A stretch of DNA of 64,000 nucleotides from Siphonodentalium dalli (lineage: Eukaryota > Mollusca > Scaphopoda > Gadilida > Siphonodentaliidae), in assembly GCA_032622095.1 (NCBI GenBank), contig CP136062.1, positions 152,762,875 to 152,826,874 on the forward strand. The letters run 5' to 3'. Position numbers and translations under genes: made by a program. Shown here in pieces: positions 7,796 to 41,360 of the stretch. The stretch's first letter is position 1. Every line of letters begins with the position of its first letter. The notes beneath the pieces were generated by a model. It searched no databases. It was not told the origin of the DNA and was given only the letters and a program-made list of their open reading frames with translations.

Positions 7796-8041
7796 GGGCT
7801 ACTTGATGGTTTGTCTCTTTCTAGTTGGTGGCAATATATGTTCCTTGAAAGTTGAGCAGGAATGTTCTGAGTGAGGTTGTGGATTGCGATGTAGGGGATG
7901 TCCCTTATTGAGCCGAGCTGACCACACAGTCGGGACATCTTTTATTGTTGCATTTAATAGTTGCATAATACTTTTTAACACAATCGTCATGCAATTACGC
8001 CGTTTGAATGTGTGTCTGGTTTGGCATGATGTAAATTATCG

Positions 8042-15144: not shown

Positions 15145-15935
15145 ATTAAAAGGATAATAGGTCTCTTTGTGATTTTGCTGTTGTCTTCGCATTTCTGTTC
15201 TTAGTTTGTTGTAGATTTGTAAGCTGATTACCCGTCCTCCAAACACCATGAGTTGCATTGTGGTGATCATCCTCCTGGTCACACAGAATATGTTATCCCG
15301 GCTGATGATCGATTAAAATGTTGTGCAGCACAAAACAAACCCGTACAGTGCTTTCCACCTCATCTGGCTCTAAACGTAAACTTGAAAGCGAAACCTGGAA
15401 TCTCCAGGACAAAATGCCAAAAGCATTCTCAACAAACCATCGAGTCCTACTCAATTTATAATTGAACACTTTGTTTGATCTTATTGAAGTGGTCTGGGAA
15501 AATGGTTTGATGATATCTTTCTGAGAGGAAAGGCATCGTCTCCAATGATGTGGTGGTGTAATTCATTAGACGTACCATTTAAATGGTCTGGTTTTGGGAG
15601 ATTTGGTGAACCTGCTTCCAAAGCCTTGTTGAGTGTAGAATGCGCAAAAACACCAGCATATCCGACCCTGCCATTGGAATAATATGACCATATATAAACC
15701 TGTAATCAGCTCCAACTAAAGCCATCAAAATAAGGCTAAACAATTTCTTATAATTGAAATAAACTGATCCGCTGTTTGATGGCTGTTTGATTGCAATATG
15801 TTTGCCACAAATGGCCCCAAGACAAAGGGAATAATTCCACTTGTTTTCGAAATCTTTGGCGATCTCTCGCCACTCATCTTCGGTGGAATGGCGTCGAAAA
15901 GAAAAATGGAAAATTACATACCATGACGCGAACAT
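15145..15935 (-). pseudogene. PIF/Harbinger transposase, decayed
   Basis: A DDE_Tnp_4-type (HARBI1-like) transposase remnant on the minus strand. Visible in order are STEDEWREIAKDFENKWN, LGAICGKHIAIKQPSNSGS (family: GAIDGKH, so the first catalytic D is replaced by C), YFNYKKLFSLILMALVGADY (family: VDADYRF), IIGDDAFPLR (catalytic D), FNYKLSRTRW and FVENAFGILSWRF (catalytic E). FVLHN and a C-terminal NRNAKTTAKSQRDLL follow. The parts after ~15579 lie in at least two other frames. The upstream helix-turn-helix exon and the terminal repeats were not found. Confidence 0.88.
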
Positions 15936-15959
15936 GGCGTTAAAAATCTGAAGTGGGGT

Positions 15960-17565
15960 ACCCCACTAGACAAGATAATTAATATTTAGCGTTGAATTAG
16001 TCGACCCGCGCGCAATTTATCAGTTGTCTTTGACGAAAATATCCATGGGAGTGCTGCTGTCACGACTTGGGGTATTAGTTGTCCACGGCCGGTTTATATT
16101 AACCCATTAATAACGATACATTGTATTGCGATTTCCAATTAGTATAGCCACGACTGCCGAGGCGCCCCACGGACCCGTATGCAGGTATTTTGTATATCTT
16201 GCAGTTGCTTGAAGTTGACCAAGTGGGGTGAAGGAGAAGATCACTCGATCTTTTCGACCATCCCGGGCGCTTCGCGCCCATCTACTCACTCTCTCTTGAC
16301 CAAGTGTGTCCTGTGCGAATCGACTTTCTGTGTCGTTCAAGGCAGGTTTTATTAACCCCTTGAATGCACATATTGGTTACAGCTATATAGTGACGCGCGT
16401 TTGTCCAAGTCTGTCTGAGACTGGCCAAGCAGTTCCTCGTCACGGTGTCAGTGGCCGGGAATGTTTTTTTTTTATTTCGTCCAGTTGCGGGACGATAACA
16501 GGGTGTATTCTGTGAAAATTGACTGGTTTCATTAACTCCTTCAATACCGATATTAGCTATATGGTGTGGCACGGGCCAATATAGTCATATATGCCTATAA
16601 CGTAATAGATACAACTACACTAACGCATGGTGGACCCCCCCCCCCCCCTTCGGGGAGATATGCAATGGTCAGACCAGAAGCTATAGCCCCCCCCCCCCAA
16701 TTGGGGGATCGTATCCCATGCGTTACGTCGCCAAATGGCCGAGAACCCCATGCATCCGTCCACCCAATTCTGATAGTTTTCAACTGATCACCCCTACGTG
16801 TAGCCTAAATAAAACCATACGAATGGGGAATATATACCCCTACCTATGTTATACCAATTATCAAACTATACTGTCGGATAAAGTTGGTACAGGTTGTCAT
16901 ATATAATGATATATATATATGCTAATATTTTACTTTTATGTCGTGAACCCATCAGTTCCCGCTAATCGAAAATTCTACCTAGATCTACAAATTTGGCATG
17001 CATATTCTTAATGACAGTATTAAAGGGGCACAAAGCATTTAGCATATTGCTATAAACTGTAAGAAACGTAAATTCGCCTCAAAATAATACTCCACGTCCC
17101 GTGAACAGTCCAATAACTTCAAATGAAGATGAAACATATGACTAAAGCTCATTGTTTTATTGAACAACACCGCAGCACAGTAAACAGTTAACAATAATAT
17201 ACTGTACTTTGTTCACATTGAGGAGACGTTTGATGTTATAGAACGTGCTCAGTTATCCACAATGTCACTGGCCACGGCGGTCGTGATCGAATGTTAAACA
17301 CATATTATGGACCTTTTCAGGTGTGTTAAACTGTTAAGTTAGTATTGAGGCACTAGGTCAACTGGAGGAATGTAGCATTCTACTACATCGCCGAAAATAT
17401 AAAACAAATCTACCGTACCACTCCATAGAGAACATCATCTGAACTACTCTCAATTGTAAATATTTACTTCGCGATTCGGGACGCAACTATCGGCGATAAA
17501 GTAACGAAAATGATTTAGCCATCGAGAGTCACTGAATTTAATTAATATATAATAATGACGGTTCT
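15960..17565. other. No gene; contains two poly-C tracts
   Basis: Poly-C runs occur at about 16627-16640 and 16686-16700, flanked by CGCATGG and CCATGCG (16612/16718), which form an inverted pair around the two tracts. At 17019 ATTAAAGGGGCACAAAGC resembles TTAA-flanked element ends. Short frames show no family. Confidence 0.4.
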
Positions 17566-17569
17566 TAGT

Positions 17570-19010
17570 CAGTTTGGATTTAATATTTGTAAACAATAAC
17601 TGCTTTGAGCAATATTATCATCCATTTCTACTTGATCACCCTACCGGAGTGTTTCACGTCACTTTAAATGAATTACAGAAGAAATGTTCAAACATGACCA
17701 GAGACGCAGTGAACTGTTCAAGACAGTGTGCGTTGATTAGCGGAAACGTGTTAGGCCTGCAACCAAAGGTGTGGTGGTCAGGCCAATCTTATCTAAAGAT
17801 TATTTTATCTCGTGGCCTAGCTAGTTGACCTTATCGACATGCAGTTGCTACCACATTGTTCTTGTAAGTGGATAATGGTGTATCAGGACCATCTAATAAC
17901 ATTCTGCATAGGCCGTCCGTTGACATCGAAAAGAGCTTGTGATGTTGCGTATCAACTTGGATATATTTCTTCTGTTCGGCGCGCCACAGCGTGACAATGG
18001 TTCAGAAGTCACTGGTAAAATAATGTCTGAATTAAAGCAGTTTGTCAGAGCTTGTGGTATATAGTGCATGGGAAATCTCGCCATCCACAGAGTCAATTAT
18101 CTATTGAGCGTGCAAGCTATGACATTGAAGACATGCTTGTTGCATGGGTGAGTGATAACGATACTTCGGACTGGACTATGGTGTACGAAATATATGAGAG
18201 TTCTAACTAGAACGTAGGCATTAAAGGCACGTGCGGCCTTAATTGTCGAAAATATTCATATTTGTTCCAAACACCGTAAACAGAAAAACAGTAAAACGCA
18301 TACAGTTCCGTTCATATATACCATGACCATCGCGTAAACAGCATGTTATCATAAAGATCTACTATATTTTACCTAAGCAAGAGCCTGATTGTGTTACAGA
18401 AGACAGCACAATGCTACTGGCTAATCACACATAAATGGCATAAACGCTCTTTATTAGTTCCATATCAGGTATTCACCAACAAAGAACGCTCTTTGTGTTT
18501 ACCATCATAATATAAACAAACACCAGAAAAAGTTACTTTTTACGCTTTTGTTTACAAAACAATGGTCAAACATATGATCATAACATACTGTTTATGCGAT
18601 ATTTCTTATTTGTATACGGACAACGTCTATCTACATTTTGATGTTCTTTCTGTTTGTGGCGGTTTTTGACGGGTGGAGATATTTTCATAGGATACCCACC
18701 GCCAAGGCCAACCGTGTCTTTAAACTATCACCATCGCCACATCGTCACATCTTCATCGCTACCCCATGCTGTGATCCAAAAGTGTCGGCGACAATGTGAC
18801 GGTGCCCATTCCATCTGTTGACAGAGGACGCGGAGATCAATGAAACATTTTCGGTGCTATACAGCTGTGGAAAACTGATAATATACGATCGGCTACCATT
18901 CTGGTGTGCTTACAACATAACATGTAATTGCGGTGGATCTAAGAGATGCAAGATCAAGCGATGTCTTTGCTATAAAATATGTGTTCTGTAAAAGTAGATG
19001 TCACTCATGT
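17570..19010 (+). mobile_element. KRBA2/GIN-type integrase fossil, broken
   Basis: An old copy of an element with an integrase of the KRBA2/GIN type (Ty3/Gypsy-Ginger lineage). Recognisable parts in order are the zinc-binding H2C2-like region (about 17590-17720), the integrase core (about 17750-18200) with the HGKSRHPQSQ-like and DMLVAWVSDN-like blocks of this family, and a cysteine-rich C-terminal patch (about 18923-19010). The coding region has several breaks and is interrupted by the R484 repeat. Ends and terminal repeats were not identified. A second copy of its 3' portion is at 40828-41650. Confidence 0.8.
18241..18724 (+). repeat. R484 repeat, copy 3
   Basis: The same unit as in the LINE 3' regions. 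It lies between the integrase core and the cysteine-rich end of the fossil, so it inserted into that element. Confidence 0.8.
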
Positions 19011-19329
19011 ACGAATTATTGAAACAAATTTATGAGTTACCGCATATAATTGTGTATGCTGTGTTACTGTATGTTAGATACCTATAATTTCATAAAAAAT
19101 GTATATCTTAATCCTTAATATATATGTATTAAATAGGCATTTGGCACTAAAATTCAGTCAGAAGTTTTAGTCATTTGGTCAAAATGACTGGTTTGACAGA
19201 TTGACTGCAACATATACAAAACAACAAATTACGCAAATGCGCTAACATGCAAACGGAGTCTCGGGATCATATATCCTAATAATGGTTAACCAACTGTTGT
19301 TTGATTATCACGCGCACAGCAGAAGCGAC

Positions 19330-19577
19330 GGAAAATTCTGCATATTGATCGGCTTAGAGTGCATGGGACTTTATTTTGTCCACTATAGTAATAAATTTGT
19401 AGTCGTCAATGCTTCGCAAATGCTGGACAATTGTCAATCATCGATTCGAAAAGTTCGCTTCGTAGTTGTGTATACTGAATAAGGAAATGTTCTTCATCTT
19501 GTATGAAATCATCACAACAAAACACGCACTTAAATTTCTCTCTTCTAATGTTACTTGGGGCTGAAGATGTTGCTCCT
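19330..19577 (-). pseudogene. LINE C-terminal zinc-knuckle scrap, part split by insertion
   Basis: The minus strand reads REKFKCVFCCDDFIQDEEHF and LRSELFESMIDNCPAFAKH, matching the C-terminal C-x2-C..DE.HFL..R region of LINE polymerases. The preceding part of the same scrap (HIEDRIAFTRFTISNHSL) lies beyond the 14.3-kb insertion at about 33869-33980. The two are contiguous in copy B, with one frameshift between them. Confidence 0.7.
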
Positions 19578-19605
19578 CCCATATAAAAATGTACCTGGGT
19601 AAATC
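19578..19605 (+). repeat. Left terminal inverted repeat (28 bp)
   Basis: The exact reverse complement of 33841-33868. Identity ends after GGGTAAATC. Confidence 0.97.
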
Positions 19606-19870
19606 TTGGTGTTTACCTAGGTATACCCCGGTACATATAGGTTTTACCCTGGTTCCACCCAGGTCACACCCAGGTTACACCCAGGTAAATCAGGGATTTA
19701 TATAGATTTACCCAGGTGTTTTCTATATATGTTAGGTATAAACCCCAGTTTACCCGGGTTTTTACGGATTTACACCCAGGTATTTACACCAGGTATTTAC
19801 ACCCAGGTATTTACACCAGGGTTTCGCCCAGGTATTTACTACAGTGTTCACCCGGATATATACACCTGTG
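19597..19870 (+). repeat. Left subterminal CCAGGT-rich region
   Basis: CCCAGGT or a one-base variant recurs about twelve times, spaced 10-30 bp (TTACCCAGG, CACCCAGGT, ACACCCAGGTATTTAC). The right end has the same motif, largely inverted. Such subterminal motifs are transposase-binding sites in several DNA transposon families. That role here is inference. Confidence 0.75.
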
Positions 19871-19889
19871 GTATTTTGTTAAACTGTAT

Positions 19890-21690
19890 AATCTGCATTG
19901 AAGTCACCTTATTAACCCTTTCTATATTACAGCACCATTGGCGTGTAGTTACCTTATTAACCATTCTATATTAAATCATTAATTGACAGGTAGTTACCTT
20001 ATTAACCCTTTCTATACTAAGTAACATTGGTGAGTAGTTACATTATTAACCCTTTCTATATTAAAGCACCATTGATGTGAAGTTACCTTATTAACCCTTT
20101 CTTTATTAAAGCATCATTGACGCGTAGTTACCTTATTAACCCTTTCTATATTAAAATATCATTGATGTGTAGTTACAATGTTAACCCTTTCTATAGTATA
20201 GCATCATTGGCGGGTAGTTGGCTCCTTAACTCTGTATATACCAAAGTATCATTGTCGTATATAGTTACCTTATTAACCCTTTCTATACTAAGTACCGTTG
20301 GCGTGTAGTTGCCTTATTAACCCTTTCTATATTAAAGCATTAATTGACTGGTAGTTACCTTATTAACCCTTTCTATACTAAGTATCATTGGTGAGTAGTT
20401 GCATTATTAACCCTTTCTATATTAAAGCGCCATTGGCGGGTAGTTACCTTATTAACCATTTATGTATTAAAGCATCATTGACGTATAGTTACCTTATTAT
20501 AACCCTCTCTATATTAAAGCATCATTATTGCTGGGTAGTTATCTTATTAACCCGTTCTATACTAAGTATCATTGGTGAATAGTTACAGTATTAACCCTTT
20601 CTATATTAAAGCATCATTGACGTGAAGTTACCTTATTAACCATTTCTGTATTAAAGCAGCATTGACATGTAGTTGTTAACCCTTTCTATATTAAAGCATC
20701 GTTGACGGGTAGTTGCCTAATTAACCCTCTATATACTAAAGTATCATTGTCGTGTAGTTACCTTACCAACCCTTTCTATACTAAGTATCATTGGCGTGTA
20801 GTTACCTTATTAACCTTTTCTATATTAAAGCATTAATTGACAGGTAGTTACATTAAACAACCCTTTCTATACTAAGTATCATTGGTGAGTAGTTACATTA
20901 TAAACCATTTCTATATTAAAGCGCCATTGACAGGTAATTACCTTATTAACCATTTTTGTATCAAAGCATCATTGACGTGCAGTTACCATATTATAACACT
21001 TTCTATATTAAAGCATCATTGACTGATAGTTACCATATTAACCCTTTCTATATTAAAGCACCATTGGCGTGTAATTACCTTATTAACCCTTTCTACGTTG
21101 AAGCAATAATTGACAGGCAGTTACCTTATTAACCCTTTTTATAATGAGTATCATTGGTGATTAGTTACATTATTAACCCTTTCTACAATAAAGCATCATT
21201 GACATGTAGTTATCATAGTAGCCAGTTATATATTAAAGCATCATGGACGGTAGTTACCATATTAACCCTTTCTATATTAAAGCACCATTGGCGTGTAATT
21301 ACCATATTAACCCTTTCTATATTAAAACATCATTGACGTGTAGTTACCCTATTAGCCCTTTCTATATTTAAGCATCATTGACGTGTAGAACTTTATCTTA
21401 TTAACCCTTTCTTTATTAAAGCATCATTGACATGTAGTTACATTAGTAACCATTTCTACACTAAAGCATTATTGACGGGTAGTTACCTTATTAACCCTTT
21501 CTATATTAAAGCATCATTGACAAGAAGTTAAATTATTAACCTTCTATAATAAGTATCATTGCCGTGTAGTTAGTTACCTTATAAAACCTTTCTATATTAA
21601 GACGTCGATCATTGACGGGTAGTTGTTACCTTATTAATCATTTATGTATTCAAGCATCATTGACGAGTAGTTACCTTATTACTTGAAGTT
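19890..21690. repeat. 45-bp satellite array with higher-order variants
   Basis: About forty tandem units of ~45 bp of the form AGTTACCTTATTAACCC, TTTCTATATTAAAGCATCA, TTGACGTGT. Variant units recur in fixed order: a TTAATTGACAGG unit (19977, 20340, 20831, 21106) is each time followed by a TACTAAGTATCATTGGTGAG unit and then an AGTTACATTATTAACC unit. This indicates amplification in blocks of roughly 6-11 units. Confidence 0.92.
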
Positions 21691-22384
21691 TATTATGACA
21701 GTATGACAATACACTACCCCGGACAAATGAAGCAATATCATACTTTATCTAACAGCCTAGCTATAATTAGTGAACATTAAACTGACAAACAGACAATTTT
21801 CAGGGCCATTATTTAATATTAAAGGGATACAAAATAAAGAGATTTCTAATTATCAGTAAGAATTATTCTCTAAGTGATACTTATTATTTCAAATAAATGA
21901 TTGCATATACTATAGTAGACCATATACCAACAGGAAAATATTAGTGAATACAATTATTGTGTTTCAAAATTCGTTTCGTTTCGTTTCTGCAGCCAAATTA
22001 CAATCTTAACTTTTAGTTATCGTTCTTCAAAATGGAGCGCGGATAATTCCTTGTGGTATTTTGAGTTAACTTTGTCGCGAATCAACGCGGATTGACAGAA
22101 GGAAATGGTGTATTGGCTACAAACGGATAAACTGTGGACTTATATATAAGATTCGCCGATTTCTCCCCATGGATGTGCGCAAATATCGAAAAAGACTGAA
22201 TTTCATGTGACAAAAAATATTTCAATTCCCGGAACAGTAAGAATTAAGCTGCGATAACGAAACGGATCAACTATAGTATTGAACAGTACCTCAGCTACCT
22301 GGCCATAACCAGAATATTTTCTCAAAATTGAATTTGTGGTACCGGTACAATCATGATGTAGTGCCAGTGGCCTGCTCATAATGC
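21691..22384. other. No gene
   Basis: Non-coding sequence between the satellite and the LINE scrap. At 21815 TATTAAAGGGATACAAA resembles a TTAA-type element edge. Confidence 0.4.
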
Positions 22385-22927
22385 ACCTGTCCAGAAGAAG
22401 AAGAATTGAGAAGTTTGAAGATCATCATCATGGACTACGCAGACACCATCTGGGACCCCTACCAACAAAATCACATCGACAAGCTGGAAAGAATCCAGCG
22501 TAGAGCAGCCCGTTTCATTAAAAGAGACTATAAGAGCAAAGAAGATGGATATATGACCAAGATCCTCTACGAGCTAGATTTACCAACATTGCAGAAACGG
22601 CGGAAAATAAATCGGCTGGGATTCATGAGTAAGGTGGTGGGTGGATTGGTCCCGGCTATACCGCCTTATCAATACTTTACACCCGAAACAAGGCGTCTTA
22701 GATCGCAGAGCAAAGTTCTGACAGGCTACGTCACCAGCCAAATTCCTCGGCACCTAATTTAAAGGAACAACAGTCAGTGCTACGAGGCTATACCATACGT
22801 GTCAGCTCAGTTCGCTAATTCCACATTTGTTCGAACTATATGCGACTGGAATCAGCTGGAGGAATCCTTAATCCTACAACAACAGCCTGTGGATTCCTTC
22901 AAGAGTGCGCTGAAGGAAAAGATCTGA
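22385..22927 (+). pseudogene. CR1/Jockey-like LINE polymerase, C-terminal end
   Basis: This reads MDYADTIWDPYQQNHIDKLE, RIQRRAARFI, LPTLQKRRKINRLGFMSKVV, FTPETRRLRSQ; then, after one in-frame TAA at 22760-22762, VRTICDWNQLEESL, VDSFKSALKEKI and a final stop. These are the conserved last ~175 residues of CR1/Jockey-type LINE ORF2. No RT core precedes it. It is a 5'-truncated insertion carried inside the giant element. Confidence 0.85.
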
Positions 22928-23702
22928 GACTCTCTCGCCCGCTGCGAAATTACCATAATTGGGATCTGCAGCGTAACCATTCAGATTCAGATTGATCCAC
23001 GATAGTAAGGGGTCAGTACATGTAGTAAGTACTGATAGTGATAAGCCTGCTGTACAATAATACTACTTTTGCTGTTTTACTGGTCTTAACTGAGTACTGT
23101 GTCAATGTGACATTGTTAATTCAGTTCCACTCTAATGTACATTAACTGGCAATGATGCATCTGACGCTATTAAAGGCACCGGTAATCCCTAAATACCAGG
23201 AGGACGCGGCGTAGAAACTTGGTACAACAGTTGTTACACGACAAAGAAAATTATCAACAAGCTTAGTGAGCGTCATCATCAAAATTGCAAATTAAAACAC
23301 GGCAATGGTAAATTGGTAATCCCTACATACCAGGAGGACAAGGCATTGAAACTTGGGACAACAGTTGTTACACGGCAAAGAAATTTAAAACACACTGTGC
23401 ACAGATGAATGTTTATACATGTACTGTGCAGTCGAGATCACCTGGACTACAAATATTTGAGGATTATACTATTTGATGAGTAGATGCGTGACTGATAAAA
23501 GAATTAGAGACTCCATATTTACTCGGAAGATAACAGTATACGAATCATACGATGCCATACAGTTGTTCCATAACACCTCAACCTTTGGTGGATATTAACA
23601 GTAAAACTAATGAAAATGATGAAAGCCAGACTCAACATCAAGACAACATGTGCATGCATAAGTGACGGTTCAATGATTTTGACTCCATCAGATGATATTT
23701 AA
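22928..23702. repeat. Non-coding stretch with a ~70-bp direct duplication
   Basis: GGTAATCCCTAAATACCAGG ... ACAGTTGTTACACGACAAAG at 23184-23252 is repeated at about 23311-23380. ATTAAAGGCACCGGTAATCC at 23171 may be a TTAA-flanked element edge. No gene was seen. Confidence 0.55.
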
Positions 23703-24080
23703 GCGACACCAATTTTTAAGTCTGGTTTACGATGTGGGGAGAGAAAAAAGTAGATGCAGGAGGGAAAAAAATAAAAATAAAAAAGATTGTCCCCCCAATT
23801 TATATCAAGTAAATCGTGGAATTTTACATAAATTTTACAAAAATTGTGAAAAAATGTTTTTGAATGAAATTCTGTTCAAACCAAACAAGACATATCTTGT
23901 CATGAAATACATGAAAATATGGATCTGTAAATGATCATAAGCAGAACCGGATGCGACAGCACATGAAAATCAGTACGCGTGTAAAATATTTTGGGACAAA
24001 AAAATTAAAAAAAAATATTCATGAAATGGAAACAAAGTTGTAGGAGGTGTTCGTAAACCAGACTTAAAAATTGGTGTCGC
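23703..24080. mobile_element. MITE family M2, copy 1 (378 bp)
   Basis: 30-bp terminal inverted repeats: GCGACACCAATTTTTAAGTC at the left is the complement of the right end ending TTAAAAATTGGTGTCGC. The interior has no transposase. A copy in opposite orientation is at 31048-31429. Confidence 0.93.
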
Positions 24081-24266
24081 CTTAGGCTCATGTTAACACA
24101 GGATCACATATTCTCAAAATAATTGTCTCCCTCAAGTTGGCCTCAACCATACTAGTATTTATATTTGATAGAACCTCAGTGAGACCATGTTGAAAATTAC
24201 CATCAATGCAGTTCCAGTGTTGACGCAACGCGGTCATGTTACTTCAAACCAGTTGCAATGTTCCTT

Positions 24267-24966
24267 AGGCCAAAGAAAAAAGATACTATGTTTCCGTACA
24301 TCGACCGACCCTAAAAATAACCCGCCGACCCTAAACTTTTTATTGATATTTTGAGAAAAAGTCAAAATTTTCGCAATTTTAATTTCCTGAGAGTGGATCT
24401 CCTGCCTGCTTTATGTCTTGTTTGGGACTTATGGAACACTATCAACAGACATGGTGGGTGTGTATCTGTATATATACATGTACAGAGGTTATCACTGCAT
24501 ATATTAGGTGTATACATGTACTAGTAGCTACTGTTTCCAAAAACCAGGCATGCTCGGTGGGTGTACTGGCTACCCCCAGACAATGGGATGTAATCGTCAC
24601 AATACATGTACGGTATAATGGCGGTATTATTGGTAAAATTCTTATAAAAAGTTAGTGACATCAATTTTGTACCAAGTTTATAGCCAAATTTATGAAAATG
24701 TGGTATTAGATATAATAAAAAACATACGTAAGCATGAAGTAAGTTTGATTTTTTATCAATCTTAATGTATATTTCCACTGTGTTGATCAAGTAATACTTT
24801 CCCCATGGCACGGGTTGGCATTTTATGTCACTTTGGTCGAGGTAGTTCAATATTTCTGCAGCTGGATAAAAAATATCAAAATAAAATAAAATAAAATAAA
24901 AAAAATTCCCTACCTACCTACCCTAAATTTTTTTACCGGAAACATACAATCTTTTTTCTTTGGCCT
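24267..24966. mobile_element. 700-bp MITE with AGGCCAAAG ends
   Basis: The left end AGGCCAAAGAAAAAAGATAC and the right end complement (ATCTTTTTTCTTTGGCCT) form ~30-bp inverted repeats that continue into TATGTTTCCG / CGGAAACATA. TT flanks both sides. Interior frames have no known domain. Confidence 0.85.
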
Positions 24967-24994
24967 TTAGCATGGTAATTCGTGAAAATAAATG

Positions 24995-25345
24995 TCAATG
25001 CAACTTACTCTCAGGCTCCAAATAAAAGTGCAGGCCCAAATAATAGTGCGGGGGGGGGGGGGAAATTCCATTGAAAGTTAATAAAAGTACAGACCCAAAT
25101 AATAGTGCAGGGGGAACTCTGAGCAAAACATCAACTGTGGTTAACCAAATAATTTTTATAGCAGGTTCAGGTATACGAGTCAACATGTAGTACAGGTACA
25201 TGTATGTATCATGTGGTGTTTTTTTGGTTTGCCACATACTTGAATATGTACTACTCTTGAGTGCCTAATGTACGATTATTAAAATCGAGGTAAAATTCCC
25301 ACCTGTACGATCGTTATTTGGTCCTGTACGTTTATTAAATTAACC
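24995..25345. repeat. AATAAACGTACAG-type repeat cluster with G-runs
   Basis: Units of the form AATAAAAGTGCAGRCCCAAAT, AATAGTGC then a G-run occur at about 25020 and 25080 (the first G-run, at ~25050, is a dozen long). At 25249-25345 lies an inverted version ending GTCCTGTACGTTTATTAAAT. Related copies are at 25835-25930 and 57690-57785. Confidence 0.65.
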
Positions 25346-25391
25346 AAAAGAAATAATTCACCAATCTTAAATTGTGTTATTCATATAAGAA

Positions 25392-25525
25392 ATGAACGGC
25401 GGTTTCAATGCGGTCATGGGGTTTTGACCGCGAGAAAAAATCAGCAAACTTCGGGGTTCATGCAGAGTTTGCTGATTTTTTAACACGGTCAAAACCCATG
25501 ACCACGTTGAATCCGCCGTTTATTA
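25392..25525. mobile_element. 134-bp foldback element
   Basis: AACGGCGGTTTCAATGCGGT and GGTCATGGGGTTTTGACCG are mirrored by CGGTCAAAACCCATGACC and GTTGAATCCGCCGTT. Both inner arms read AAATCAGCAAACT or its complement. The ~60-bp arms have few mismatches. Confidence 0.85.
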
Positions 25526-27038
25526 TTTATATTTATATACTTAAATTCATTATGAACTAGGATTGTATGTCTTTCCCATTATTTATTCATCTATTTAAAC
25601 AAACGCATGGAGTTCAGTTCAGACAGTTCGAATCCTTGTTTTTTGGAAAACCAAACATTTTGAGAATCCGTTCATGGAGAACGGAAGAAACGCAATTTCA
25701 CAGTAAAGTATAAACATATGACAAAATGTCTTGTTTAGCTAGTAACTAATGTAGACGTGTTGATCATTTTTACATCTGAATCATATAGAAATCTTGAATT
25801 TGTGCTGATTTAAATTTTCATAGCTTCAAAATATTAATAAACGTGCAGACCCAAATAAGCACTGTGCAAGGGGGGGGATTTCCCAAGAAAAATAATAAAC
25901 GTGGATGCAGCTGGTGCATGCATATTTATTTGGAGCCCAAGAGTAAAGAGGTGGAGGTGAATGTTACATGTAAGTTGTTATTAACGAAATGGAACGATGC
26001 CTTTAATAGGTTCCACCAGCAATAAGTCGCGACTTCTTTATATTGGCCTGACAGATTGGTTTTTGTTGGCGTCATGCCTGTCGACCATTATGATGGCCAC
26101 ATATATTGTCATATAACAGCGATTTACGATCTGTCTTGTTGGCTCATAATATAAATTAAGAAAGTGGCCTTGTGTTCGTTCCTTGCGTAAAAAAATATTT
26201 TTTAGTACAAACGTCCTCATTGATTGTGTCCCTCGACTCCTTGTGTAATTGGTCAAGTAACTTACATGTATGTGCATGTACAGACCACTCACAAATTTCT
26301 TAGAAAAGCGACCACATGTTCGAATCTACTTTGCGATTTTGGAGCAACGCATTTGTAAATGCGTTCATATTTTAACACATTTACCTTGATTTATTCACAA
26401 ACAAATGTCTTGATGCAGGCCTTAAAATCCATCAGATTTTTGGCAATAATCAAAATGTTAGTGTTTCACTTTCTACAGGGAATCAAGACTTTTTACTAGA
26501 ATCAAAATGAGAATCATGATTCTCAGATTCTGATTATAAAACAATTAATGTCAACAGTGTTTATTTATGTTTATTCCATTTTGAATGGAAAACTACATCA
26601 TGAATGTCCGATTCCGAACATATACATGTACACCAGGAGTGGGAAAATAACACAGAATTATTCAGATGTGAATTTAAATTAAACTAAAATTGCAAAATAC
26701 ACTATCGTATCGTTATTTGGGTGTTCATACTAGTATACTTTTTCGGCGCAATGATCGGTAATTTCAATGCGACTGCGATTATTCCCAATGCAGTGCATTT
26801 AATTTAAATGCTGTCATTAAGGCATTTACAAAGTGGCGTGACACAATGCACCCTCAATGCATTTTAAATTCAACAACCGCATTTCATTGATCCACGTTGT
26901 AAAGGACATTTATTTTTAGAATACATGTATGTACGTGTATATAACCACAAGAATAAAGAACAAATCAAATGTTTTTATTACTTTGTAAACCTCTGATGTT
27001 TCCCATACAGTATACATTTGTATATTATAAACCATGTT
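25526..27038. other. No gene; AT-rich passenger DNA
   Basis: Besides the AATAAACGTGCAG unit near 25835-25930 I see only non-coding sequence with TACATGTA-type motifs. Confidence 0.4.
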
Positions 27039-27255
27039 ACAGTAATTCTAGAGCTAATTAATCGACTCCTTAACTACAGCAGAATTATGGGTAACTTTTC
27101 AGGATTTAGTCCGAAATATGGCTTGTTGCCATTCATCGGAAAGCTCTCACCGAGAGCTCCGATGAATGGCATCAACCCATATTTCCGACTAAATCCTGAA
27201 AAGTTACCCATAATTCTGCTGTATTTAAGGAGTCGATTAATTAGAGCATTACTGT
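27039..27255. mobile_element. Foldback family M3, copy 1 (217-bp near-palindrome)
   Basis: The whole element is an inverted repeat: TACAGTAATTCTAGAGCTAA ... CATTCATCGGAAAGCTCTC, then its complement to ATTACTGTA. Arms are ~105 bp with a minute centre (ACCGAGAG). The family copy is at 28759-28925. Scraps of the same end may be at 29675-29720. Confidence 0.9.
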
Positions 27256-28758
27256 ATATCCTCTATAACTGTTTATTCAACATCACGTGCTGCAATCCAT
27301 AAATGCGGTTCAGATTTCGATGTCCGGTTCAACATTATTATCATATGGTTTGATAGCAGAAATACTCAGTTTGGAATGTTATACCATACGAGTTTTACGA
27401 GTTGCTCTTGCTCAAGAATGGATAAATTTATAAACCTGATTTTTGGCGCATTAGTTAGAATTATATTTTTGCACAAGAACACACCACAAATATCGAACTG
27501 GACATCAAAAGCAGAACCGGATTGTATCGATTGCATAAACATAAGAAGTTGGTCACTGACCGACAATTGCTATTCTCTGGTGTGGTTTATAGGACTACCG
27601 TACGCAATGCCGACTTAAAAATAAAAATTCACATAAACATCGCATGAAGCGGTCTATCCACAAACTCAGGTATTCGGTAATTCCAAATGTATGAACTATC
27701 ACCATGATATCCCGGTATATCATTGTCAGGACTGTTTGTACAAAAGGTTGTTATTCTACTATGCATAATTTTGCTATATCATTGTACTCGGACTGTATTG
27801 CAATGTAATATATCAGTACATGTACCGGTATACTGGGTGCACATTATATACATGTAGGCCTACTTTCACTTTAGTACATGTATGTGTCATAAAAGACTCA
27901 TGTTGTTAAATTGAAAAAAAACATGTGTGAAAACAGAGAGAATACATGTACATGTGCCGGTACTATATACCTCTTTGTGTGCTGTACTACCGGTACTATT
28001 CATGTACATGTACTACACTACAATAAGAGAAATTTTAATTGATTCTGCTGCCCTTGTGCCACAGGCCTCAAACACGCCAAACAAGTATCTGTAGCCAGGC
28101 CCACCAGTACCAGGCTACTAGTAAATGAAGTACTGAAAGTGTCACATCATTAATCGAGCCCAATCTTAGTTATACTAGTCTCTTGTGTAGTTTGGGTTAC
28201 TATTAATAAGATATTTAATGAATGTTTGGAATGTATGCATGGTAGCATTCTTACCTGGATCAACATATGCCATGCACAACGCTGGTCATCATATCATCAC
28301 CGCTGTTGGCAGTAAACCGCTCATCGGGCTATAACAGTTAGAGTTTTCCAAACCAGGGCTAATCTAATCAGTTAAAATTAGTCATTTTAGAGGGAATACC
28401 AACCAGTGGAAGACGTATAAAAAGTCATGTATATTCAGATATCAGTTTTCGAGAAAAAACCCATCTTAGTCGAGCGGACTTAGAATATCGGGGTAAACTT
28501 AAATTTCATTCAGCAACACTTTCACAGCAGAATATAAAAATAGTACATTATAATCACTTACAGTACATGTACATGTAGCCCAAGTGCAGTGCTAGCCTAT
28601 ATTATATACTACCAAAACTTTTGGTCAGTTTCTCGATGACTGACACTTGTAAACGCTTGAACGGGTACTATATAGTACATGTACATGTACATGTGTACCA
28701 TATGTGAATTAAAGATCTTATTAGTGACACAACAGGAGGCTAGACATACATTTGTAAC
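27256..28758. other. No gene; TACATGTA-rich
   Basis: The palindromic octamer TACATGTA and longer GTACATGTACATGTA runs are frequent (about 27815, 27945, 28003, 28565, 28675). Frames at 27366-27618 overlap on both strands and show no family motif. Confidence 0.45.
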
Positions 28759-28925
28759 TACAGTAATGCTCTAATTAATCGACTCCTTAACCACAGCAGA
28801 ATTACGGGTATTAAACTCGGGGAGAGCTTTCCGATGAATGGCAACAAGCCATATATCCGACTAAATCCTGAAAGTTACACATAATTCTGCTGTGGTTAAG
28901 GGGTCGATTTCTTAGGGCACTACTG
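28759..28925. mobile_element. Foldback family M3, copy 2
   Basis: It shares TACAGTAATGCTCTAATTAA and CGACTCCTTAACCACAGCAG ends and the GAGAGCTTTCCGATGAATGG centre with 27039-27255. It is more diverged and has an internal deletion of one arm. Confidence 0.85.
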
Positions 28926-30071
28926 TATCTGTTTTAGTGCACATCAAATGTATTTGTTGTCTTTCCTCTTGTAATTTGTCTTTGGTTGTGTTCGCCATTT
29001 CGATGGACAACTACATGTACTGACATCAAATGACTGAAATGAGTCAAAATTTAGCAGTGCAGCCAATTATGTAGATAAACAGAATTAAATAGCATCCAAA
29101 TTCCAAATGAGCATAAATGATAAAACAAACTTTATTGAGCACTCTTTTAATACTAGTAATTACAGCTACAATGAAAGCACCTAATAACAATTCTAAGTTT
29201 GGTAAAACTGTCTGTATACAAAGTTTATCTGGTCGTGATGAATAAAACTTATAAATGGGATCATATACATGTATGTTAGATATCATTACATGATTATTTG
29301 AAAACACGTATCCGTATGGAAAACAAACTATTTTACCACTGGCCAAGTGGTCCTGCTAATATGCTATGATGCTGGTGGTCCTGCTGAATTGCTATGATGC
29401 GGGTAGTGCAATTCATAGCAATTAAGCAGGACCCAACCGCATCATAGCACATTAGCAGGAACACTTGAACAGGGTATATTTACAGTGTCAAATCGAATGG
29501 GCATCTTTTAACAATATTTTTGAACAATTTCCTAGAAGTGTTCGAAAATTGAGAACTGAATTTCCATTTTTTTTTATGAGGTTTCGATTGAAAAATTTCT
29601 AACTTAGCTCATCAGGATTAACATTGTCGCACAGCTATATTCTCTTTCCCAACAAAGTCTATAGAACATACATGTAAAATTACAGCTATGCTTTAATTAA
29701 TCAACCCGCCTTATATTACTCGGGTATTACTGCAGTATTCAGGCGTGTTCATGCGATCAACCGCAGTCAGTTATACCGCCGCAGAATGTGGTCCACCTCA
29801 CATTTGCAGTTAGGCTGTATTTTTCATGCGATGTTAATATGAATTTTGTTTTAAAGTTGACATTGTAATCACACCAGAATTTTTTTTTTATTGTTTCAAA
29901 ATGTCTAGATAGAATTCAGAATTTTTGTGGTAAAAACAATTAACTTGGTTATCACAGTTAACACATATTACTGTGGTAAGATTACCAGCGGATACCGCAT
30001 GTCAACAGGGACTGCATGCTCTAATTAATTATCAGGTTTAACATGTTTATACTGGATACAGTTCATTTTAA
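28926..30071. other. No gene apart from a short foldback
   Basis: The frame 29044-29346 (minus) has hydrophobic stretches but no recognised family. A foldback lies at 29349-29460. Confidence 0.35.
29349..29460. mobile_element. 112-bp foldback
   Basis: GGTCCTGCTAATATGCTATG and GGTCCTGCTGAATTGCTATG are mirrored by CATAGCAATTAAGCAGGACC and CATCATAGCACATTAGCAGG. Each arm itself contains two related half-units. Confidence 0.8.
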
Positions 30072-31014
30072 AGGTACTCAATCGGTTCGATGATACCCAT
30101 ATAATCAGATTCCAACATCATACATTTGTATTTAGAAAGGCTGCTTCAGTTACGTTATCAGAATTGATTAATTGCCCTAAAATAATGCTAACCACTGTCA
30201 ACTAAAGTATACAATTGCCTGACATATGTTATTTATCAACATGTTGTTCTACAAAATTTGGCCTTATTATCAACAGAAAGCCTCTTGATTTTAGAGTTAT
30301 CCATCTTCATCTGAAATTTGGTCCGAGACCGTGGGCCACTATTAATTCTTGATCGTGAAAAATAGTATATTTCAAAAATTGATATCTAATAACTCTGAGC
30401 TTTGATAGGTGGTGGGTTCCTCGACTCGTACCAAATATCTTTTACCCCCCAAGTCCAAATAAAGAGTAATGTGCGAGCATTAATTCAGGGGGCCCTTAAT
30501 CATCAGATTATGCATCTTTAAATTCAAATACAGTTTAAAGATGCATAATCCGATTAAGTGCCCCTCATTTGCTATTTACATATACATGTATATGGAACCG
30601 GGGGGGGGGGGTAAAAATATTTTAATCAAGTCGAGGGACCCACCTACATGTATCAAAGCTCAGAGTTATTAGATATCAATTTTTGAAATTTTAATATTTA
30701 TCACCATCGATACTTAATAGTGGCCCAGAAAAATTTGACGAGCCGACGGTCTCAGACCAAATTGCGGATGAAGATGGATAACTCTAAAATGAAGAGGCTT
30801 TGTGTTGATAATAAGGTCAAACTTCGTCGAACAGCATGTTGATAAATATAACGTATCAGGCGATTTTATACTATACATGTACTAGTAGTTGACAGTGGTT
30901 AGCATTATTTTTGGGCAATTAATCGATTCTGATATTACTGAAGCAGCATTTCTAAAAAAAATGTTGTTGTTGGAATCTAATTATATGGGGACCATCGAAT
31001 CTGATTGAGCACCT
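30072..31014. mobile_element. Kolobok-like long-TIR MITE (943 bp, TTAA sites)
   Basis: TTAA lies at both edges (30068-30071 and 31015-31018) with termini AGGTACTCAATCGG and complement AGGTGCTCAATCAG. The arms are ~430 bp, diverged to perhaps 85-90 percent, and meet near 30510 around GATTATGCATCTTTAAA and its complement. TTAA duplication with 5'-AGG termini fits Kolobok-type elements (piggyBac also uses TTAA but usually has CC-type ends). There is no transposase. Confidence 0.85.
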
Positions 31015-31047
31015 TTAATAGTTAGCTATATGAGTTATATACACATA

Positions 31048-31429
31048 AGGCGACACCAATTTTTAAGTCCGGTTTACGAACACCTCCTACAACTTTTTTT
31101 CCATTTCATGAATTTTTTTTTTAATTTTTTGTCCCAATTTTTTTTACACGCGTACTGATTTTCATGTGCTGTCGCATTCGGTTCTGCTTATGATCATTTG
31201 CAGATCCATATTTTCATGACAAGAAATGTCTTGTTTGGTTCAGAATTTCATTCGAAAAGTTTTTTTTCACAATTTTTGTAAAATTTATGTAAAATTTCAA
31301 GATTTACTGGATATAAATTGGGGGGGACAATTTTTTTTATTTTTATTTTTTTCCCCTCCTGCATCTACTTTTTTTCTCCCCACATCAGCCCACATGTTCG
31401 TAAACCAGACTTAAAAATTGGTGTCGCCT
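31048..31429. mobile_element. MITE family M2, copy 2 (382 bp)
   Basis: The same element as 23703-24080, in the opposite orientation: AGGCGACACCAATTTTTAAG ... ATTGGTGTCGCCT. Interior identity is high, including a mirrored CATGTGCTGTCGCAT and TTCTCCCCACAT. Confidence 0.92.
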
Positions 31430-33025
31430 AATAGACATTTAAACTTTGAAAATTGTAGGTTTCCGGATGATAACTTCAGTTTGTGTGATCATATCTGAAC
31501 CAAATGTGGTATGTAAGTTTATCAGACCAAAATACAGGTCAAGTTCGAATATAGGTGTGCTCCGCTCATTTTTGCGAGAGTTATGGCCCTTTTTCGACTT
31601 AGAATCGTGTTAATTTCTGGTTTCCGCATCATAATTTTAGTTTGTGTGATCAAATCTGAATCAAATTTGGTATGATAGTTTATTATCCACCATTTCATGG
31701 GACACTGGTTGGATTGTTCTGAAATGTAGTATCGGATTTAGGGGACCTTGATATATTTTTCAGACAAGCTGATGCCCCAAAGAAGCCACTTTTTCTCACA
31801 TTTGCTGAAATAGTATCCAAAACATCAACATATCAAGAGCCATTAGACTGAATTAGATAAAAATATATCACTTGGGTCTGTTTAAGCTGGAAAATACTCA
31901 AAAATTTTATAATTTTCTGCTATTATATCTGCATACTAGCCTTTTTGCTGAATCGTGAATGCCGGTTATATTGCCGTGTGAAATCCTAGTACCAGATAAC
32001 ATTGGGTATGTACATGTATATAGCATACCACCTGAAAATGGCTTGAATATCACATACCAAAGCGGGGTGGGGTGTGTGTGACACCCTCCTTGATCATAGT
32101 CTGTATTCTACAGGGTATGTTAACTGTTTCGAGTTGGTGCAATTAATGTGATTGTTTAATCTCTACCATCTGAAATCTATTTATAGCATATTTTGCTATC
32201 TGATCAATATTGCTACTTAGTACTGATATAAAACAGGATAAAGATGGTGTGTCTCTTTCCTGAATGTTCTGTTTACATGTACATTTGGGGGTTTATGAGT
32301 CAAATAATATCAGACAACATGTCCTTCTAACACTAAGAAATAATATGTTCTTATCAACCAGGACAAAATATGACTATTTCTGGAGCATTACAGCACATTA
32401 TTACAAATCTATATTTGTAAGCAGTAAGATAATGACAGGAAACATGTCCTCAGACTAAGAAATAATTTTTTGGTGTGTATTTCACACCACAGCTCATGTG
32501 TATACTCACATTAGTTTATGTCATTCAAAGGGAGAAACCCATTTAGAAAGTTTAAATGAGACAAAACTACCTCACTGTAGATGTAGTTGCAAGGTACAAC
32601 ATGTACATGTATTCTGGTAAATGACATTGGAACTAAAATAATGATTTTTGTGTCCACCGGTATGTCATGTACCGGTACTAGTATACATTGCAACTACATG
32701 TACATGTAACTTGCCTAACATACCATATACATGTATGAAGAGGGACTTTGCAAGTGTTTTTTAATCAAAATTTTAACCCAACTCTTGTTGTCAGTAAGTT
32801 TTAACCCATGCAGTTTAATGAGTTTATATATTTATATATTGCATGTGTTTCTATACATGTATTTTATCTTTAGTTAGTTTGTTGTCCTTGAATAAACTTG
32901 TATTGCTGCACAATCAGTTTCCTTAATGTTCTATTATACTAAAACAACTCCATTGATAACAATACCCCTGCATCCCATCAAAATCTACTTCATTGCCATC
33001 CTCATCATTTCACTTTGGTATCCCC
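31430..33025. repeat. Non-coding, with a ~158-bp direct duplication
   Basis: GGTTTCCGGATGATAACTTC ... TTTGTGTGATCATATCTGAA at about 31460 recurs at about 31618. The rest (to 33025) has short frames without family motifs and several TACATGTA sites. Confidence 0.5.
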
Positions 33026-33028
33026 ACC

Positions 33029-33245
33029 CAGGTGTACCTTGGTGTTATTCACCCAGGTGTTCCTTGGTGTTTCCTACCCATGTGTACCTTGGTGTTTTCT
33101 TACCCAGGTGTACCTTGGTGTTTTCTTACCCAGGTGTACCTTGGTGTTTTCTTACCCAGGTGTACCTTGGTGTTTTCCTGCCCAGGTGTACCTTGGTGTT
33201 TCCTTACCTGGGTGTACCTTGGGGTTTTCTAACCCAGGTGCATCT
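33029..33245 (+). repeat. 26-bp minisatellite (CCCAGGTGTACCTTGG)
   Basis: About eight units of TACCTTGGTGTTTTCTTACC then CAGGTG. It is the inner half of an inverted minisatellite pair near the right end of the giant element. All three frames stay open across it, which is a by-product of the repeat. Confidence 0.92.
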
Positions 33246-33254
33246 CAATGGGAA

Positions 33255-33665
33255 ATCCACCTGGGTAAGAAAACACCAAGGTACACCGGCGTAAAAAAAA
33301 AACACCAAGGTATACCTGGGTTGGAAACATCAAGGTACACCTGGGTGGGGAACACCCAGGTAGGAAACACCAGGGTACGCCTGGGTGAATAACACCAAGG
33401 TACACCTGGGTGGGAAACACCCAGGTAGGAAACACCAGGGTACACCTGGGTGAATAACACCAAGGTACACCTGGGTGGGAAACACCCAGGTAGGAAACAC
33501 CAGGGTACACCTGGGTGAATAACACCTAGGTAACCTGGATGGGAAACACCCAGGTAGGAAACACCAGGGTACACCTGGGTAAATAACACCATGGTACACC
33601 TGGGTGGGGAAACACCCAGGTAGGAAACACCAGGGTAGACCTGGGTGGGAAACACCCAGGTAGGG
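33255..33665 (-). repeat. 65-bp minisatellite, inverted sense (ACCTGGGTG)
   Basis: Units starting AAGGTACACCTGGGTGGG recur at 33397, 33462, 33527 and 33591, thus every 64-65 bp, each with CACCCAGGTAGGAAACACCA inside. The ACCTGGG sense is opposite to 33029-33245, so the pair can fold on itself around 33245. Confidence 0.92.
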
Positions 33666-33840
33666 TACACCTGGGTGTGGTCACCTGGGTAATTACACCC
33701 AGGTTTACCCATACCAGGGTTTTTATCCAGTTTCAGGTGGGTAAATCATGGTAAAACCCAGGTTTCGCGGGGTCTTGATGGTTGGTGGATGTCTTGGTAG
33801 ATAGATTTTTACCTGGGTTTCGGCCCAAAAAACCTGGGTG

Positions 33841-33868
33841 GATTTACCCAGGTACATTTTTATATGGG
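33841..33868 (-). repeat. Right terminal inverted repeat (28 bp)
   Basis: The exact reverse complement of 19578-19605, followed by the second CT. Confidence 0.97.
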
Positions 33869-35115
33869 CTTCTCTATATATATCAGTGAATGGTTACTGA
33901 TAGTGAATCTGGTGAAAGCTATTCTGTCTTCGATGTGGTTAAAGTCTATATTATTTATTGAAAAGACGATGCTTATTGTATGTATGTTCAAAGCATGTGA
34001 TGTTTTCACCATTATTGTGGATCTGCGTTTGGTGCCAGATATCTTACCCGCGGACAGAATACGAGTACACTATATAAATTGTTCGAATTCAAAAACAATA
34101 CACAAAGAAATCTCCCGAACAGTATTGATAGTGGCAGAGATAAACTCGCCATTATCGAGTCGGGGCTTCCATTACAAATGTCGATGTATGACCTTTCAAA
34201 AGCTTCAACCCATAGATTTGAGGCGAGACGCTAAACTGCATGGGAAGTTGACGTAAAGACTGAAAAGAAATTTTCAGAGTCAGAAGGGCATTTAAAGGTC
34301 TATTATATATAGTTTGATAAGAGTATAGAAGATGCATTAGATATTTGTGTTGTAACAATATAGTGCCCGACAGTATGAATATGTGTTTCCGATTGAAACT
34401 TTTCCGGCATACATCACCAAAGACACACCAACTGTTCGGGCTTCTTTGTGCACGCAAGTCGACTCTGGTATTTCTAAAGCTTTAACCATCACACTGGCAT
34501 ATCACTTCTATTCAAAGCAAGTACAAAGATGTACAGCATGGCCATTGTCGAGACGTTGCTCCAATCGCTCACGCCAACGTAGGACCTTTCAAAAAAACTT
34601 TACTGTCAATCTTTGTTGAGAGCTCGATTGTTTACCAGTGGCTGAACACAGGGGGTCCGGGAACTTTAATTTGTTCTGTTATGTATTACAAGAAGGCCCC
34701 GGATCGATTTTCGGGAAAATCACACCAATGGTGTGGAAATGGCTTCAAAATCACATTTTCTTTTTCAAACTACCAATTTTGTTAACAGGATTATATCCTT
34801 CAGTAGACTCTGTTCTTTAAAACTAACATCCACAAAATATGATAAATCAAAACTTGTTTGATAAAATCCGATCCCAAATTCAAAATCTGATACCAATATC
34901 TTCATATAGGGAAATGCGTATTATTTGACGATAATGTTATCGAATTCGACTGGCAGGATATTGACATTTTAGACACTGTTGTCAAATCTATCAGGGTTTG
35001 AATATGCGTTTGGATTTTCTAAAACTTGTATATCGCCTTATCGTATTTCATGCATGCTAACTTCAAAGAATAAACGTCTAACGAATGTGTATAGAGCTGT
35101 TACCAATTAAAAAAA
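33869..35115 (+). repeat. Duplicated block, copy A, right part
   Basis: 1247 bp matching 42213-43459. It holds several short frames (for example 34152-34457 minus, 33864-34256 plus) without recognised families. The match ends in a run of seven A at 35109-35115. Confidence 0.95.
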
Positions 35116-35255
35116 TATTTTCATAGGATACCCACCGCCAAGGCCAACCGTGTCTTTAAACTATCACCATCGCCACATCGTCACATCTTCATCGCTACCC
35201 CATGCTGTGATCCAAAAGTGTCGGCGACAATGTGACGGTGCCCATTCCATCTGTT
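35116..35255 (+). repeat. 140-bp fragment of the duplicated block
   Basis: Equals 41316-41455, an internal part of the block that includes the last 45 bp of R484. It joins the A-run end of copy A to the 3' end of the large LINE. Confidence 0.9.
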
Positions 35256-38200
35256 ACATTTATTTTCAATACCTCCATTTATGGAGAAGAATATTTACAG
35301 CAAGGTATTTACGATTGTGTACATAACAAGTGTGAACAATGTACAATCTATAAGATGAGTGGCAGGGCATGTAACAGTTGGGTAAGTTGCGGTTGATGCC
35401 TGACATATGACGGCGTGTGGAATCATCTACGGCTGGTGGTCATAGGTTATCCTCTAATCAGGGAGCACACGGCAAGAAGATACGCAGCGGAGAACAGAAT
35501 TATTGTATGCTTGTTCTCGATTAGATGGTGTGGTTGTCCTGGAATGTTCCCTCCAAGAATCAGTGCTGAAAGTTCTTCGTCGCTCAAAGAATCGTGCATG
35601 AAGATAAATACAGACACTCCATAGTGGTTGAGAATAGTCTCCCAGTAGCTATTACGTAATGAAAGAATAACTTCCGAAGAGCAATACCTCATTGCGTGGA
35701 GAAGTTCGTTGTTGTACTGCTGATCACAGGCACGGCATGTCAGATGGTTAATATACGTCGTCTTATTGAGTAGAATAGCAAGATTCCGAAGTTGAACTGA
35801 GCAATTTGGGTACTGTCTAAGAAGTGTCCAAATCGACCAGGGAGTCATAGGATATGTGTGAACTAGTTGAAATGTGGTCAGTGATGGGTTGTTGGCAACG
35901 GATGAAGTCCAGAATGAGAAATAATGGTCCCGAACAGCTTTCTTGTAAATTGTTTTCCATGCAGAGTCTGACGGAAAATGTCCGGTTTGTGTGAAGATGT
36001 CAAGGTAATCGTAGAGTTTATATTGCTGAAGAATAGGAACAATGTCTGACACAAATCCAGTTGTATGTCTATTAAACAGAGTGAATTTAAAGAATCGTAA
36101 GAGGAATATCTTTAACGGCACCTGATGTCCTTGAGGAAGGTGAATCAGATGGCCGAGGAAGTTCAACTTTTTGATGTGGATTTCGGACTCAAGAGGCAGG
36201 AGTCCCAACAAGCTGAGAGCGACGTCTGTTGATGTGCGTCCAGGAAGAGTTTCTATGTGTTTAACACAGCATCGGAAAGCTCGTTCTAGTGAGATGTGTA
36301 TAGAACGTGTACTGACTTGTGTGAGCTCGCATCCATATAACGCCCTAGGAAGGACAACATACTTTAGCATAAACCCCATCGTCAGGGGAGAGCACGATTT
36401 GAAGGGCTGCTTTCCAGCTAAGACGAAGTAAGTTTTTCGCAGTTTCGTGGTTAACTCATTGGCTCGGTTGGAGTCATTTTGATACTTGTTGTGTGGAATT
36501 CCGAGATGAACACACGAGGAAGTTTCTGATATTATTTGATCTCCCAAGTACCATTTCCTGTCGTGATTTTCGTCTTGACGCTTCGTCTCATTAAAAACGA
36601 CGACCACACTTTTTGTTTCTGAGAAATTAAAGCGCCATAGTCGGCTGTATCTGCAACATATATCTAGAAGACTGTCCATTCCATATTTTGATAATGATAG
36701 CAGAGCAATGTCGTCTGCTGCTGTCGGTGCGACACAATGTACAGATCCAATTGAGAAACCGCAGTTCGAAGAATTCAATTGATTCAGCAAGTCATTTATG
36801 TACACTAAGTAGAAAAAAGGGGAACACACTGCCCCCTGCCTTGTTCCTTGTTTAACTGAGAGTGTATTCGAGAGAGCCTTGTTATACAATACGCGACTTG
36901 AGCAGTCAGAGTACATGTTAGTCACGACACGTAGTATCCTACCACAGAAGCCTAGTTGGTGAAGTTTCACAAAGAGACCTTCATGCCAGACACGATCGAA
37001 GGCTTTTGCCGAGTCCAAAAAGCACACAAAAGCACGAGAATTGTGATCACCAGTATAGTTGATGAATTCTTGGACAAGAAAGGCAGACATTTGGCAGCTA
37101 ACTCCTTTCTGGAAACCGTGCTGCAACTCATGTGGGAACATTGCGATGTCGGGATCACCAAGAAATCTATTGAGAAGGATATGTTCGAAAACTTTATAAA
37201 TTACAGGCAATAAGGTTATGGCTCTGTAGCTGTCAGGTAGATGCTTCGGTTTGGGATCACCCTTGTGTAATGGCACGATTATTCCAGTTTTAAGAGATGG
37301 TGGTATCCATTCCAGTTGAATAAGTCCGTTGAACAGGCGACAAAGAGCATTAACAAGGGATGCACTTCCGTGAATTAGATGGTCGTTTGTGATCTGGTCG
37401 ATGCCGCCTGATTTGTTCCGCTTCAGTCGTCGTAAAACCGAAAACACTTCGCTATTACTTATTGGCTCGCAGAACACATTACAATCGAATTGAGGATGAG
37501 ATTCATCAAGCAGCGAATGCAGTTGTCTGTATATGCTTTCTTCGAACTCTGTGTCAGAATGAATAGCCGGGGTGTACAGTTTTTCGAAATATACACGCCA
37601 TGCTTCAAGAATATCGCCGCGATCTCTGAGTGCTCTACCTTCGAAGTTCATAACGGAACCGAAACTGTCAGTGTGTTGAGAATCATCAGATGTTCGCAGC
37701 ATTTTCCAGAATTGCGTCTGGTCCTTGCTGGCACATGATTCGAGGATTTCATATTTGCGATGCTCTTGTGAACGAATTGCAGAGCGCACTGATCGTCTGA
37801 AGGAACGTTTGGATTCTTTGTACTGGATGTATTCTTCATGATCGTATGAGTGAGGCCTACCAACCATTATCCACACGGTACGTTTCTGTTTGACATCGAC
37901 ATGAAGTGACCGTAATTCATCGTTCCAGAAAGATTTCCTGGACCTATGGCGTGGTGCTGATGGCGACGCCATCGAGGAAGCGTGCAGTATTGCTTTAACA
38001 ATATCTGTATACAATTTGTCTAGATTATCTCGTGTTTTGAGAGAGTGGCACAAAGTCATGGTGAGAAGTTCATCAAGTGAAGCCTGGTATAAGGCAGTGT
38101 CCATTTTATCCCAATTGAGGGATAACCTCGTGAATAGAACTGGTGCAGTGGTCTCTGAAACTGGTATCTCAAAGCTGCACGACACTGGTAAGTGATTCGA

Positions 38201-40829: not shown

Positions 40830-40876
40830 ATGAGAGTTCTAACTAGAACGTAGGCATTAAAGGCACGTGCGGCCTT

Positions 40877-41360
40877 AATTGTCGAAAATATTCATATTTG
40901 TTCCAAACACCGTAAACAGAAAAACAGTAAAACGCATACAGTTCCGTTCATATATACCATGACCATCGCGTAAACAGCATGTTATCATAAAGATCTGCTA
41001 TATTTTACCTAAGCAAGAGCCTGATTGTGTTACAGAAGACAGCACAATGCTACTGGCTAATCACACATAAATGGCATAAACGCTCTTTATTAGTTCCATA
41101 TCAGGTATTCACCAACAAAGAACGCTCTTTGTGTTTACCATCATAATATAAACAAACACCAGAAAAAGTTACTTTTTACGCTTTTGTTTACAAAACAATG
41201 GTCAAACATATGATCATAACATACTGTTTATGCGATATTTCTTATTTGTATACGGACAACGTCTATCTACATTTTGATGTTCTTTCTGTTTGTGGCGGTT
41301 TTTGACGGGTGGGGATATTTTCATAGGATACCCACCGCCAAGGCCAACCGTGTCTTTAAA
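40877..41360 (+). repeat. R484 repeat, copy 4
   Basis: The same unit as 18241-18724, within copy B of the block. Confidence 0.85.

Follow-up and report, generated by a model that had tools for sequence, protein, structure and literature searches.

The question raised by a 64,000-nucleotide stretch of the genome of the scaphopod mollusc Siphonodentalium dalli (assembly GCA_032622095.1, contig CP136062.1, positions 152,762,875 to 152,826,874 of the forward strand; here called the window, with positions counted from its first letter) is what kind of mobile element has interrupted one of the two copies of a 2.63-kb block that it contains. The interrupting DNA, a 14,291-bp insert at 19578-33868, is a unit with 28-bp terminal inverted repeats (TIRs) of the form CCC..GGG and dense subterminal motif arrays, and it is present in one copy of the duplicated block. 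We consider it quite probable that the insert is a large DNA transposon of the CACTA type found in animals (EnSpm/TRC), non-autonomous and recently inserted; membership in the CACTA superfamily is likely, judging from its sequence features.

The insert is real in the sequence as assembled. The empty paralogue of the block (40828-43459) recurs as an interrupted, filled copy at 18192-35115, in which the left part (18192-19577) is 99.7% and the right part (33869-35115) 99.9% identical to it. Joined with one CT, the two flanks amount to 2,631 bp; compared with the empty copy across its 2,632 bp, this sequence has four substitutions and a single 1-bp indel, in agreement with the four or five differences counted in an earlier, sequence-only reading of this locus. 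The left flank terminates in ..GTTGCTCCT, the right flank opens with CTTCTCTAT.., and the empty site reads ..GTTGCTCCTTCTCTAT..; CT stands at both insert edges (19576-19577 and 33869-33870) and only once at the matching site of the empty copy. A 14,293-bp insert carrying CT at one end, with no duplication, is strictly possible and would leave identical letters, but the symmetric ends favour a 2-bp target-site duplication, which in this one insertion has the length seen in animal TRC-type CACTA elements. The outer flanks of the two block copies are unlike each other on both sides, so the copies look like paralogues rather than alternative haplotypes of a single locus. Neither a footprint nor a scar marks the insertion site in the empty copy, and the simplest order is therefore that the block was duplicated first and the insertion came afterwards, which would make the insertion younger than the 0.19% divergence between the block copies. 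The earlier suggestion of a very recent transposition is supported by the TIRs, the CT duplication, and the low divergence of the block.

The first 28 bases of the insert (19578-19605, plus strand; CCCATATAAAAATGTACCTGGGTAAATC) are the exact reverse complement of the last 28 (33841-33868, minus strand), and by a rough estimate the chance of perfect 28-bp inverted pairs in 64 kb is about 2.5e-7. Both ends begin with CCCATAT and so share the CCC start of animal TRC-type CACTA elements, and each TIR contains one copy of the motif ACCCAGGT, which in the left TIR takes the form ACCTGGGT. The insert length, the perfect inverted ends, and the CT that is single in the empty copy had all been proposed from the letters, and the sequence comparison bears them out. 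Exact TIR patterns of 23 and 22 bases have no matches in IMG/VR and in prokaryote contigs, respectively; the first 14 bases have no match in the papers searched, and the first 11 occur in four papers, none of which concerns transposons according to the titles and the opening lines of the abstracts. A near match to the first 14 bases (13 of 14) at 4775 was dropped, with no motif array behind it; a search for partner ends to this site, allowing at most one mismatch, returned none except the insert's own right end.

The motif arrays next to the TIRs set the two ends apart from the rest of the window. Counting sites of the ACCCAGGT type with at most one mismatch on both strands, 67 of the 70 strand hits in the insert lie in its left 330 and right 900 bp, and since three of these end places are counted on both strands, they correspond to 64 places (of 67 overall). 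The 13,061 bp between these two end regions have only 3 strand hits, and the remaining 49,710 bp of the window have 12; the motif-rich subtermini noted earlier are thus confirmed. With its TIR, the left array (19606-19833) contributes 15 strand hits (11 plus, 4 minus) in the first 330 bp at 13 places, two of them counted on both strands, and the right array (33026-33840), also with its TIR, contributes 52 (22 plus, 30 minus) in the last 900 bp at 51 places. Exact ACCCAGGT matches occur 7 times in the first 322 bp and 30 times in the last 860 bp, compared with means of 0.1 (maximum 2) and 0.35 (maximum 3) in 1000 first-order random sequences per end. The right array is made of 26-bp and 65-bp tandem units and has inverted repeats of itself. 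In the left array, the 11 plus-strand sites are spaced with a period of about 10.5 bp (2 of 5000 random placements are equally good), although an 11-bp tandem duplication accounts for part of this and no conclusion rests on the periodicity, which concerns the left array only. In the literature consulted here, arrays running in both orientations are documented for plant CACTA elements and not for animal ones.

To assess coding capacity, stop-to-stop frames with starts from 21,690 to 33,000 and a length of 52 codons or more were listed, and 57 of these 59 frames were scanned with Pfam (to E 1 for some and to E 0.1 for others); the other two, which enter the right array, and the DNA to the left of 21,690 lay outside the scan. 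None of the 57 reaches a curated cut-off for any family or matches a known eukaryotic transposase, and none has the CACTA-type Transposase_21, although a fragmented or intron-rich gene could escape. This is what is expected of a non-autonomous copy, and the earlier view that the element is probably non-autonomous, with no known transposase visible, is supported. NCBIfam returned nothing up to E 1 for eight insert frames, and Rfam nothing at gathering scores for the window. All weak Pfam matches on insert frames fall below curated cut-offs and were set aside as chance, among them Arm-DNA-bind_1 (a lambda-integrase arm domain; E 0.033) in a frame overlapping a nested element at 23702 and zf-C2H2_5 (E 0.0007) in a frame through the right motif array. 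A 126-codon open frame at 22382-22759 (plus strand) resembles, judging by eye, the C-terminal end of the reverse transcriptase of a non-long-terminal-repeat (non-LTR) retrotransposon, but no search confirmed this; it has no significant match in Pfam, NCBIfam, or PDB, nor to two window frames, one a reverse transcriptase and the other reverse-transcriptase-like by eye.

The combination of ends and duplication has precedents. Animal CACTA elements (EnSpm, TRC) are described with CCC-starting TIRs, 2-bp duplications, and paralogous empty sites; SmTRC1 of Schistosoma has TIRs of 54 bp, a Tribolium element has TIRs of 27 bp, and an Aedes element 9.2 kb long has TIRs of 10 bp (PMC1636069; DeMarco and others). 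The Hydra element Spongebob/EnSpm-4N1_HM has CCCAGCC.. ends and 2-bp duplications, on which its authors based a TRC-type CACTA assignment (PMC4298943), and target duplications in the CMC group are given as 2-4 bp (PMC4482050). A short motif repeated in both orientations also forms asymmetric subterminal arrays in CACTA elements, and in plant Spm/En these are bound by the TNPA protein (PMC2613891). The sequence-only conclusion that the insert matches no superfamily accordingly fails. Several points nonetheless weigh against the CACTA assignment. No transposase and no second copy were seen, so the superfamily is assigned from a single insertion, by its ends, the length of its duplication, and its subterminal architecture. 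Past CCCA, the TIR has no visible likeness to the few published animal ones, and most of the wider clade has CA..TG ends with 2-5 bp duplications (PMC12730594, 2025); CCC ends are a minority form in that clade, the one found in published animal TRC elements. The word 'subterminal' is absent from the SmTRC1 paper, which reports the 2-bp repeat in only 7 of 14 copies examined, three being confirmed by paralogous empty sites (PMC1636069). Subterminal motif arrays are present in hAT elements as well (Buster1; PMC4298943), but with duplications of 5-8 bp (PMC4482050), unlike the 2 bp here.

A different assignment would place the insert in a superfamily not yet described, one that has CCC ends, duplicates 2 bp of target, and is mobilized by an unknown transposase supplied in trans. 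The lack of any transposase that could place the insert, and of matches to its TIR in the literature and in both sequence collections, is consistent with this, but those collections are viral and prokaryotic, so missing copies mean little, and the CCC start with a 2-bp duplication already occurs in animal CACTA elements and two-orientation arrays in plant ones; we regard such a superfamily as very unlikely. The related proposal of an unreported family, possibly a superfamily of its own, of giant non-autonomous transposons with CCC ends and ACCCAGGT arrays, partly in helix step, that mobilize over 14 kb of nested passenger DNA in one piece is similarly improbable. What may stand of the earlier claim of an undescribed family is an unreported family inside the CACTA superfamily; a new kind of transposon does not, as the traits of animal CACTA elements fit. 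The insert is probably a member of a new, uncatalogued family of a known kind, as judged without comparison with Repbase.

An ISL2EU/Harbinger-type (PHIS) origin, with movement by a PHIS transposase, is very unlikely for the insert. Outside the insert, a minus-strand fragment at 15582-15965 has a weak match, below the cut-off (E 0.0067), to DDE_Tnp_4, a domain of Harbinger-type transposases, and inside it there are TTA-flanked elements; both could be read in favour of PHIS activity. ISL2EU elements likewise duplicate 2 bp, and all 25 families of the group come from animals, but their duplications are AT and their ends usually GG (PMC4482050), whereas the insert has a CT duplication and CCC ends. 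The remaining doubt concerns the locus itself, where the empty copy might derive from precise excision rather than never having been hit, or the arrangement might be an assembly error, as the two block copies are 5.7 kb apart on one contig and 99.8% identical. A mis-join would not yield perfect TIRs and a clean CT at both junctions, however, and the block copies differ in their outer flanks. Precise excision is uncommon, and the missing footprint in the empty copy also speaks against it. We hold either event to be highly improbable.

The insert is most likely an oversized passenger element of an ordinary kind, with ends like those of an animal type known since 2006. For such a CACTA element, a CACTA-type transposase encoded elsewhere in the genome would act in trans and cut at the CCC ends. 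The ACCCAGGT sites could serve as multiple binding sites for the transposase or for a TNPA-like accessory protein, and the protein bound there would bring both ends together. Staggered cuts 2 bp apart would give the CT duplication, and cut-and-paste transposition would carry the interior along as one 14.3-kb cargo.

That interior appears from its sequence to be passenger DNA, consisting of a 45-bp satellite and nested elements that represent three or more other transposon groups. The satellite is a tandem array of 39.3 copies beside the left subterminal region (19902-21681). Two elements flanked by TA, at 27038-27256 with inverted ends CAGTAAT..ATTACTG and, as a shorter second copy, at 28759-28927, resemble miniature inverted-repeat transposable elements (MITEs), and from their duplication signature we take them to be Tc1/mariner-like. 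A 943-bp palindromic element with TTAA on both sides (30068-31018) is presumably piggyBac/Kolobok-like, again by its duplication signature. A 380-bp element at 23702-24081 with inverted ends (A/G)GCGACACCAATTTTTAAG.. and TTA on both sides is Harbinger-MITE-like by duplication; a second 380-bp copy lies in the opposite orientation at 31049-31428, is about 88% identical, and has TAA on both sides on the plus strand. The Harbinger duplication signature is given as TWA (PMC4482050). These group names come from duplication signatures, not from library matches.

Other repeats lie around the insert. About 145 bp from within the block (18679-18823 and 41315-41459) occur once more immediately beyond the right end of the filled copy (35115-35258), whose last bases are AATTAAAAAAA. 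The arrangement suggests an A-tailed insert of 2 kb bounded by a long target duplication and later copied, together with upstream sequence, to 40828; no clear flanking duplication was seen at the copy at 40828. Between the two block copies is a minus-strand non-LTR retrotransposon (35450-40838), with a 1,175-codon frame containing endonuclease and reverse transcriptase domains (Pfam) and a 637-codon frame with no Pfam match above the cut-off; the start of the latter lies no more than about 10 bases from the block edge. Two 97%-identical copies of another repeat, at 322-2804 and 6700-9161, have minus-strand frames that are reverse-transcriptase-like by eye, and a 484-bp part of this repeat recurs inverted, with 96% identity, in both copies of the 2.63-kb block. 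Farther right, related tandem arrays at 47613-48740 and 53812-55661 are in opposite orientation, with units of about 170-380 bp and identities of about 75-85% in the longer alignments.

The locus offers a clean case, on one contig, of a recent 14.3-kb insertion beside its own empty paralogue. This suggests that ends of the CACTA-like type are able to transport a large cargo of nested repeats even when the element lacks a transposase. The locus raises no new question, but it provides a useful starting point in the search for the autonomous partner. Among known systems, the insert resembles the animal TRC elements in its CCC start, 2-bp duplication, and length of several kilobases (9.2 kb in Aedes), SmTRC1 in having an empty-site paralogue in a repeat, and the Tribolium element in TIR length (28 bp here and 27 bp there), but it differs from the animal TRC elements in its size of 14.3 kb, its dense ACCCAGGT arrays, its lack of a recognised transposase, and its TIR beyond CCCA. 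With ISL2EU (PHIS), a group known from animals, it shares the length of the duplication, but neither the duplicated bases nor the ends. The 20.5-kb soybean element Tgmt*, with 4 repeats in 159 bp at the left and 24 in 732 bp at the right (PMC2613891), is likewise large, and its two-orientation arrays have the same asymmetry, with the shorter one at the left and the longer one at the right; unlike the insert, it ends in CACTA, duplicates 3 bp, and encodes a transposase.

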